This document shows, piece by piece, positions 19,464-35,855 of a DNA stretch of 36,697 bases; position 1 is the first letter of the stretch; every line of letters starts with the position of its first letter. Position numbers and translations under genes: made by a program. Under the pieces are notes generated by a model. That model worked only from the letters and a program-made list of their open reading frames with translations. It did not search any database and was not told the origin of the DNA. This DNA is from a virus. The DNA lies in IMG/VR virus record IMGVR_UViG_3300046777_002606, positions 1 through 36,697 of that record; one strand, 5' to 3'.

Positions 19464-20156
19464 TTATTCAATAGTAATAGAAGGTGCATCTACACAGTCA
19501 GAACACAAATCACTACGAACCCAACCAAGTGCCTCAGATACTGCAGGAAACTGACAGGTAAAGATACAACGAACAAGTTCTGCAATTTCCATGTGTTCCT
19601 TTTGTGTGCCATGTGCAGAACGAAGATCAATATAATGAATCCATGACCTTACAGAACCGGTCATATAAAGGCGTGTAGGCGTCGCCAGGGGCAGTACAAA
19701 CCTTGCACACTCCTTTGCCACTCCTTTCTCTAGGAGGCGGTTGTAGAGGCGTAGACCCTGCTCAAAATGAACGCGAATGTCTTCGGTCAAAGTCAGTTTC
19801 AGATAATCGGGAATATCATCAATACTGTTCTGACGGTTCTTAGTATCTTGCCTACGAAGTTCAGGAAGAGGAATAGTTTTGTTTAGAAGATTAGTGTCAG
19901 CATATCGTTGCGAAAATTCTTGATATGTAAATGATCTATGTCGGAGAATTTGAGCTGCTAGTCCACGAGTAGTGTTAATCTCAACTGTCATACTTGCTTG
20001 CTCAAAGATACTCCAGTGTTGATGTTGAATACAATACTTAAGTAGACCAGAAAACTTTTCATTGTCCTGATTAGAAGGATTACTTACGCGAGCACAATAC
20101 GCCATATGCTTCTCTGCATCTGGTGTAACACTAATGAGTTTTACTTCTGGTTTCAT
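19464..20156 (-). CDS. thyX: Flavin-dependent thymidylate synthase ThyX
   Basis: 230 residues from the Met at 20156; in-frame Met codons up to 20198 overlap the preceding gene and add residues absent from this family. The ThyX signature RHRSFTYQEFSQRY (RHRx7SxRY type) occupies residues 72-85 and contacts FAD and dUMP. Other features are the GLLKYCIQHQHWSIFEQ segment and the C-terminal SVRSWIHYIDLR. The enzyme makes dTMP from dUMP with methylenetetrahydrofolate and NADPH, feeding phage DNA synthesis. It starts 13 bases after the stop of a 60-residue gene under the promoter at 20375-20403. The length is normal for ThyX. Confidence 0.92.
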   Translation of the reverse strand: MKPEVKLISVTPDAEKHMAYCARVSNPSNQDNEKFSGLLKYCIQHQHWSIFEQASMTVEINTTRGLAAQILRHRSFTYQEFSQRYADTNLLNKTIPLPELRRQDTKNRQNSIDDIPDYLKLTLTEDIRVHFEQGLRLYNRLLEKGVAKECARFVLPLATPTRLYMTGSVRSWIHYIDLRSAHGTQKEHMEIAELVRCIFTCQFPAVSEALGWVRSDLCSDCVDAPSITIE

Positions 20157-20169
20157 GAACTCGAATTCT

Positions 20170-20352
20170 TCAGTTAGCATATTCGTCGTCATCGTCATAA
20201 AATACTTCGTCGTAATCGTTTAGATAATGTGCAATTTCTTCATATTGTGGTTCTGGTCTATAAGAATCCACATCAGAATTAATTTCTGACTTAAGGCATT
20301 CTACCAGGGACTCAAGGTTTTTAACTATTAACTTAATCTTTTCTCTGTCCAT
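20170..20352 (-). CDS. Small acidic protein upstream of thyX
   Basis: 60 residues from the ATG at 20352, which has a GAGG ribosome site about ten bases upstream; an in-frame upstream Met would lie inside the promoter. An N-terminal helix (MDREKIKLIVKNLESLVECLKSEI, in parts) is followed by a strongly acidic C-terminus (YDEVFYDDDDEYAN). It is the first gene after the promoter that overlaps the terminator at 20390-20413 and is followed by thyX. No family recognised. Confidence 0.6.
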   Translation of the reverse strand: MDREKIKLIVKNLESLVECLKSEINSDVDSYRPEPQYEEIAHYLNDYDEVFYDDDDEYAN

Positions 20353-20374: not shown

Positions 20375-20403
20375 ATTATAGACAAAAAAAAGAGGGGAGT
20401 CAA
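20375..20403 (-). promoter_or_regulatory. Sigma70 promoter whose -35 lies in a terminator loop
   Basis: TTGACT (20398-20403), a 17-base spacer, and a perfect TATAAT (20375-20380). The -35 hexamer is within the loop and arm of the terminator at 20390-20413, and the T tract is in the spacer. It would drive the 60-residue gene and thyX. This is the overlapping early promoter/terminator type called PeTot in T4-type phages. Confidence 0.78.
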
Positions 20404-20413
20404 GTCCCCTCTT
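20390..20413 (-). terminator. Rho-independent terminator of the riboswitch operon
   Basis: On the minus strand AAGAGGGGA, a six-base loop and TCCCCTCTT form a nine-base stem followed by seven T bases. It lies just past the 32-residue gene, ending the transcript that begins at the riboswitch. Confidence 0.85.
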
Positions 20414-20416
20414 AGA

Positions 20417-20515
20417 TCACTTTGCTGCTACCAAAGTAGCAAGAGATGCTTTATGCCGCCTCTCTTCTTTTTGCTTCTGCTCTTTAATGAGTTGAAGTGC
20501 ATTAAGTTTTTTCAT
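20417..20515 (-). CDS. 32-residue basic peptide downstream of the DUF4278-like gene
   Basis: A short gene reading MKKLNALQLIKEQKQ followed by a Lys/Glu/Arg helix and ending SLATLVAAK. The ATG overlaps the stop of the preceding 45-residue gene (ATGA), and GGAGGGG lies seven bases upstream, an excellent ribosome site. It ends four bases before the terminator stem. It is a probable amphipathic helix; function unknown. Overlap, ribosome site and placement between riboswitch and terminator make it a likely real gene. Confidence 0.68.
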   Translation of the reverse strand: MKKLNALQLIKEQKQKEERRHKASLATLVAAK

Positions 20516-20649
20516 TTGTGCCCCTCCTTTACAAACTTAACACCACGATAGGTTTCATTGTATTGTTGGGGTTGCTGCATCATCTGCTGTTGATACTCAA
20601 GACGCTTTTGGGTATCATATTCGATGCCACGATATACAACTTTAGACAT
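20512..20649 (-). CDS. DUF4278-like 45-residue protein under a glutamine riboswitch
   Basis: 45 residues starting MSKVVYRGIEYDTQ and ending NETYRGVKFVKEGHK, with a Gln/Met-rich middle. Two YRGxx(Y/F) motifs at either end are the hallmark of the small DUF4278 proteins of cyanobacteria, the family that includes PirA, a PII-binding regulator of arginine synthesis. AAGGAG lies nine bases upstream of the ATG. The gene follows a predicted glutamine riboswitch with no other gene between. By inference it could tune the host's nitrogen or PII network during infection. The sequence shows only the YRG pair and the context; binding to PII is not shown. Confidence 0.72.
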   Translation of the reverse strand: MSKVVYRGIEYDTQKRLEYQQQMMQQPQQYNETYRGVKFVKEGHK

Positions 20650-35580: not shown

Positions 35581-35790
35581 TCAGAAGATGCCGAAGAAGA
35601 AGTTGCCAGTGAAAGCATAAGAAACAACACCAGCAACAAAACCGACCATTGCCCAGCGTCCATTCATTTTCTCCGCTTTTTCTGCATAGGGTTCGATACC
35701 ATAACGTTCAAGGTCTTCCTTGGTCATGTACATCGCGGGTTCTTTGGCAAACATATTCATTTGCCCAAACTCGTTTTTTGTTACAGTCAT
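35581..35790 (-). CDS. hli: High-light-inducible protein
   Basis: 69 residues. The C-terminal half carries the Hli signature: YAEKAEKMNGRWAMVGFVAGVV, in parts, followed by SYAFTGNFFFGIF. The N-terminal half (KEPAMYMTKEDLERYG) is a phage-type extension. One chlorophyll-binding helix is expected, anchored in the thylakoid. It is the first gene after the promoter at 35819-35847, so it is an early gene. Likely keeps photosystem II active by protecting or storing chlorophyll. Confidence 0.9.
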   Translation of the reverse strand: MTVTKNEFGQMNMFAKEPAMYMTKEDLERYGIEPYAEKAEKMNGRWAMVGFVAGVVSYAFTGNFFFGIF

Positions 35791-35818: not shown

Positions 35819-35847
35819 ATTATATAGGAAAAATAAAGGGGTGTCAA
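35819..35847 (-). promoter_or_regulatory. Sigma70 promoter with the -35 in the porin terminator loop
   Basis: A perfect TTGACA (35842-35847) and TATAAT (35819-35824) separated by 17 bases. The -35 overlaps the loop and arm of the terminator at 35837-35855. It drives hli, the 28-residue peptide, ferredoxin, the 92-residue gene, the second hli and peroxiredoxin. Confidence 0.87.
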
Positions 35848-35855
35848 GCACCCCT
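35837..35855 (-). terminator. Terminator of the porin gene
   Basis: On the minus strand AGGGGTG CTTGA CACCCCT forms a seven-base stem with a five-base loop, followed by TTTATTTTT. It lies about 33 bases past the porin stop and overlaps the next promoter. Confidence 0.75.

Follow-up and report, generated by a model that had tools for sequence, protein, structure and literature searches.

A segment of about 40 bases in marine cyanophages appears to serve one gene group as its stop signal and the next as its start signal. We identified it upstream of thyX in the window that we analysed, the whole 36,697-nucleotide stretch of DNA, which is a cyanophage fragment carrying psbA, psbD, speD, thyX, phoH and hli. 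We read the segment as a bifunctional operon boundary, in which a predicted terminator and the following promoter are written in shared bases and would move together as an exchangeable module, and we put the probability of this reading at about 0.85. Such double use of a sequence is unusually dense, a promoter box here forming the loop of a putative terminator, and in many marine phages paired changes maintain the arrangement.

Read on the minus strand, the cassette is AAGAGGGGA CTTGAC TCCCCTCTT TTTTTT GTC TATAAT, and its two predicted signals interlock throughout (Table 1). The arms form a stem of 9 bp, five bases of the -35 box make up most of the loop, and the sixth, a T, opens the 3' arm, where it is paired with A20405. 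By RNA folding, the hairpin alone reaches -14.1 kcal/mol, and a 68-nt transcript end at this site has a folding z of -3.1, while the overlapping promoter, TTGACT-17-TATAAT, agrees with the consensus at 11/12 positions. A preliminary description of this DNA had claimed that the -35 box sits in the loop and arm of the terminator, that the T tract is the spacer before a perfect -10 box 17 bases away, and that the two signals use common bases; our coordinates agree with all three claims to the base. It had further proposed that the cassette divides a riboswitch operon from the thyX operon, with which the gene order on the minus strand is in accord: a glutamine riboswitch aptamer is followed by the 45-aa and 32-aa ORFs, the cassette, the phrog_878 ORF and thyX. 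Short charged ORFs resembling the 32-aa one stand before the cassette in many relatives, and the cassette lies between variable small genes and a conserved thyX-phoH-exonuclease block.

Table 1. Features at the two fused cassettes of the window and in their surroundings.
Feature	Position	Strand	Basis or remark
Fused terminator/promoter cassette of the thyX operon	20375..20413	-	Sequence reading, detector
Terminator 5' arm, AAGAGGGGA	20405..20413 (20413-20405)	-	
Terminator loop, CTTGAC	20399..20404	-	Contains the first five -35 bases
Terminator 3' arm, TCCCCTCTT	20390..20398	-	
T tract, TTTTTT	20384..20389	-	Sequence; within the promoter spacer; RNA 3' end predicted here
-35 box, TTGACT	20398..20403	-	TTGAC followed by T, A or G in related loci
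-10 box, TATAAT	20375..20380	-	17-base spacer; conserved in relatives
Predicted transcription start, G	20368	-	7 bases past TATAAT; from spacing only
Glutamine riboswitch aptamer, RF01739	20677..20767	-	Covariance model, 42.7 bits against a gathering score of 35
45-aa ORF of the riboswitch operon	20512..20649	-	
32-aa ORF, last gene of the upstream operon	20417..20515	-	
60-aa ORF, first gene served by the cassette	20170..20352	-	phrog_878
thyX, flavin-dependent thymidylate synthase	19464..20198	-	Thy1, 6.9e-47
Second fused cassette, AGGGGTG CTTGA CACCCCT, TTATTTTT	35819..35855	-	Detector; TTGACA-17-TATAAT (12/12)
hli, high-light-inducible protein, served by the second cassette	35581..35790	-	phrog_178, 1.3e-32

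In the mechanism that we propose, RNA polymerase arriving from the riboswitch operon would transcribe the inverted repeat, and the RNA would then fold and bring transcription to a stop in the T tract, at a point that would fall between the -35 and -10 boxes of the next promoter. A sigma-70 type holoenzyme would bind the same duplex DNA as a near-consensus promoter and, presumably with early timing, start the thyX operon about 12 bases past the position at which the -10 box begins. Because the new transcript would begin downstream of the hairpin, it would escape the terminator and continue into thyX. Folding of single strands is not expected to affect the promoter in duplex DNA, and a strong promoter and a terminator placed on the same bases could interfere with one another.

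The detector used to search for fused sites accepted only stems of 6 bp or more, 4 or more of them GC pairs, that came with a T tract and overlapped a promoter scoring at least 10/12. It returned two sites in the window, at 20413 and 35855, both with the -35 box in the loop, and no such site in 60 dinucleotide shuffles of the window on both strands, a control which, like the E-values given here, tests sequence and not function. Such detectors are simple and demand perfect stems, so that they undercount sites that have a single mismatch (L035 is one) or a different -35 sequence; the loosest setting used, a promoter score of 9/12, lets in a few weak matches.

The second site stands before hli, and BLAST similarity to Cyanophage S-RIM44 begins at its first terminator base. 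Directly upstream of it, at 36583-35888 on the minus strand, this cyanophage contig encodes the C-terminal part of an OprB-family porin (PF04966, 1.2e-08) in a frame that is open to the end of the window. Beyond the window, the exact 22-mer core of the thyX cassette is present in 88 IMG/VR stretches, mostly before a phrog_878 ORF and, in some loci (L097, L116 and L120), before unrelated genes. We also scanned IMG/VR for TTGAC, T6 and TATAAT at the right spacing without requiring a stem, which gave 98 distinct usable sites among the matches listed, preceding the thyX leader ORF, hli, a clamp-loader homologue and unknown families. Among these listed matches, a stem of at least 6 bp was present at 56 of the 98 sites, as compared with a mean of 2.0 (maximum 6) after shuffling of the upstream bases and of 10.3 (maximum 17) after swapping of the arms; together with the shuffles of the window, these controls rule out a chance origin of the fused site. 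Neither the exact core nor the relaxed pattern had a match in 84,980 bacterial and archaeal genomes, and we rejected an origin of the cassette in a host. In one IMG/VR locus, L121, the core is followed, in place of a -10 box, by a late-promoter-like TATAAATA and a 432-aa gene, possibly as the result of an exchange inside the T tract.

The corresponding cassette of T4-type phages is named PeSL, for promoter-early stem-loop, in the literature (Arbiol 2010; Comeau 2014; both cited in PMC4503421). The preliminary description had equated the thyX cassette with a T4-type element that it called PeTot, a name with no relevant match in the literature searched: a search for it returned mostly papers on potato (section Petota) and no phage cassette, and the T4-genomes paper did not contain it. 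We examined PeSL anatomy by scanning the genomes of RB49, T4 and KVP40 directly. RB49 is reportedly among the phages of the first PeSL paper, and PeSL work is said to describe recombination between copies as well as mini-circles. The thyX cassette could be an ordinary PeSL of the RB49 or T4 kind, with the same anatomy. Like the PeSLs of RB49 and phi1, it combines a strong, near-consensus sigma-70-like promoter, conserved in relatives, with a stem-loop that qualifies as a terminator at the level of sequence (stem, T tract, folding energy and paired change); it likewise occurs in several copies per genome (two in the 36.7-kb window and a few per whole cyanophage genome), at module boundaries where genes are gained, lost or swapped. 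Among the papers searched, we found none describing a -35 box in a terminator loop in cyanophages, and an overlapping form may already be described in the PeSL papers. In RB49, however, the promoter follows some 13-32 bases past the stem and has no hairpin base in common with it, whereas the cyanophage element has its -35 box in the loop and its T tract in the spacer. The counts follow the same division, with 13 terminator-then-promoter pairs within 40 bases and 0 sites with the -35 box in the loop in RB49, one such tandem pair and 0 -35-in-loop sites in T4, and no TTGAC in a terminator loop in T4, RB49 or KVP40. S-SM2 has 0 tandem pairs and 4 -35-in-loop sites, G002 has 1 and 3, and G004 has 0 tandem pairs and a thyX site that is clearly of the -35-in-loop form; Syn1, P-SSM2 and Bellamy are similar, each of them, like two long contigs, having a few -35-in-loop sites and no more than one tandem pair, and in Syn9 the detector accepted no -35-in-loop site. 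Whole cyanophage genomes carry only a few -35-in-loop sites, fewer than the tandem pairs of RB49, which, with their absence from Syn9, speaks against the boundary reading. On the anatomy, we regard identity with an ordinary PeSL as unlikely, and since the element works like a PeSL but lacks the side-by-side order of stem-loop and promoter seen in RB49, it is best called a PeSL variant; the equation with the T4-type cassette holds for the working parts and fails for the anatomy. RB49 also has one strong site (3192, minus strand) with the -10 box in the terminator loop.

KVP40 has an overlap in yet another register. Seven similar copies on the plus strand of its genome (NC_005083, L380-L392; 21147, 59699, 85859, 97800, 100194, 121377 and 150227) consist of AAAGGGTTGACNNNNGTCARCCCTTT and then C.TGTATTAT, or of closely similar sequences. 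As in the cyanophages, hairpin and -35 box overlap, but here the -35 box lies in the 5' arm, so that TTGAC itself is base-paired, and the spacer is 18. The side-by-side form of RB49, the arm-overlapping form of KVP40 and the loop-overlapping form of cyanophages suggest repeated solutions to one problem. A more far-reaching proposal has two parts: the -35-in-loop fusion would be a mobile regulatory element in its own right, confined to phages and carried by marine cyanophages and some other viruses, and the stopped polymerase would influence the next initiation. We consider this proposal rather improbable.

Evidence for exchange comes from what lies on either side of the cassette. Different genes are found upstream of one and the same cassette among relatives, and when the 98 sites among the matches listed were compared in 4753 pairs, 2155 were alike downstream only and 88 upstream only, a contrast to which a faster change of the short genes upstream could have contributed. 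How many distinct families stand upstream can be counted only loosely, since many of the short ORFs there are similar to one another and 78 of the 98 listed sites are merged by single-linkage clustering. In four loci (L050, L012, L045 and L120), an extra gene lies exactly between two copies of the cassette. The insert of L050 is a gene of 134-152 aa with no match in Pfam or PHROG, and those of the other three loci are genes of 161-165 aa (phrog_18622 in L012), which may go back to one common event. Between the occupied L050 and the empty L137, the left and right flanks are 88% and 90% identical, and the window itself is an empty relative of L050 (flanks 89/80%), while the insert matches empty relatives at about 54%, the level of unrelated sequence in this alignment. 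L045, L120 and L012 likewise match their empty relatives in the flanks and not in the insert, and the two cassette copies of L045 are 97.5% identical over 40 bases. These comparisons support the view that the cassette marks sites of gene insertion, deletion and replacement. The preliminary description had suggested a search for the same cassette at other loci and had held it to be a mobile unit that separates operons; its presence elsewhere is borne out by the hli site, the 22-mer and the scan sites, and the mobile role gains support from the change of upstream genes at the cassette and from the four occupied loci with empty relatives. Recombination between cassette copies, by a probably homologous route, would replace or insert whole genes, and since one 40-bp cassette would provide both an operon end and an operon start, neither neighbour would be harmed. 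Modular shuffling thereby becomes testable, through direct comparison of a site that is occupied in one relative and empty in another. The arrangement resembles the 'morons' of lambdoid phages (treated in PMC1524935), where a gene comes with a promoter and a terminator of its own, in that an inserted gene brings start and stop signals with it and lies between conserved neighbours; it differs in that promoter and terminator are here one element and the insert lies between two copies.

The same comparisons bear on a possible regulatory coupling, in which polymerase released in the spacer would re-use or block the promoter and thyX output would follow the traffic on the riboswitch operon. In favour of coupling, the predicted termination point falls within the promoter, and conservation of the arrangement is strong, but the upstream operon differs between relatives while the cassette stays, which makes dependence on one particular operon unlikely, and we give coupling only a slim chance.

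Returning to the bifunctional boundary, the sharing of bases was followed through 80 thyX loci that were collected by protein and not by cassette. A promoter of at least 10/12 is present in 65 of the 68 related loci with enough upstream sequence, and in the window, and a stem of at least 7 bp surrounds the -35 box in 47 of 54 distinct cores, nearly all of them in registers 2-6. When 5' arms were swapped among cores, such a stem was present in 26.7 of 54 on average and in 33 at most (500 trials); the purine-rich character of all 5' arms accounts for this high level. Arm sequences and their register relative to TTGAC vary (for example GGGGA-CTTGAC-TCCCC, GAGTG-CTTGA-CACTC and GGTTC-TTGAC-GAACC) while the -35 box, T tract and -10 box stay in place, almost always with 17 bases between the boxes, and the base at the last -35 position (T, A or G) changes along with its partner in the arm. 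These patterns are best explained by selection that holds the promoter geometry and leaves the hairpin free to change by paired substitutions. They also leave very little room for the segment being a promoter alone, with a chance inverted repeat and transcription reading from the riboswitch operon into thyX: a few relatives such as L064 do have promoter and T tract without a matching 5' arm, but elsewhere the arms change in pairs and in many registers, the T tract follows directly after the stem, and the hairpin is very stable and absent from shuffled sequence.

The converse reading, in which the segment is a terminator only, with a TTGAC loop retained for the sake of the RNA (a stable loop, or a protein that binds it) and an incidental TATAAT, draws on the fact that no loop class is commoner in thyX loci than the one containing TTGAC and that L121 keeps the cassette before a late-type element that is not a -10 box, but we rejected it as scarcely credible on the co-occurrence counts, a -10 box at 16-18 bases accompanying TTGAC loops in 55/56 terminators of thyX loci and 8/11 in seven whole cyanophage genomes or contigs, against 26/152 for other loops in those genomes under a looser test, and because T4, RB49 and KVP40 terminators do without a TTGAC loop and the spacing is almost always 17. 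Across 1.5 Mb of collected loci, part of which was collected via the cassette core itself, the -35 box lies in the loop at 113 of 116 distinct overlapping sites. The combination of TTGAC loop, T-tract spacer and TATAAT offers a structural handle on operon and module boundaries in cyanophage contigs, for which transcript maps are rare.

Other geometries also occur. In L073, a terminator upstream of thyX has the -10 box in its loop. Where the thyX operon begins in S-SM2 (L171, 46477) and Bellamy (202309), and at a similar site in P-SSM2 (190738), a promoter-like -10 box abuts the terminator 5' arm and the terminator ends near the ATG, so that a start would fall inside the hairpin. In the window, a TTGACA-17-TAGAAT promoter before presumed gene 32 (16527-16499, minus strand) holds in its spacer a perfect inverted repeat, ACAGGT-TCCG-ACCTGT, without a T tract. 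After psbA (25441-25380, minus strand), TTGATA-17-TATAAT is directly followed by the terminator GGGACCCGAAAGGGTCCTTTTTT and then by a late-promoter-like TATAAATA.
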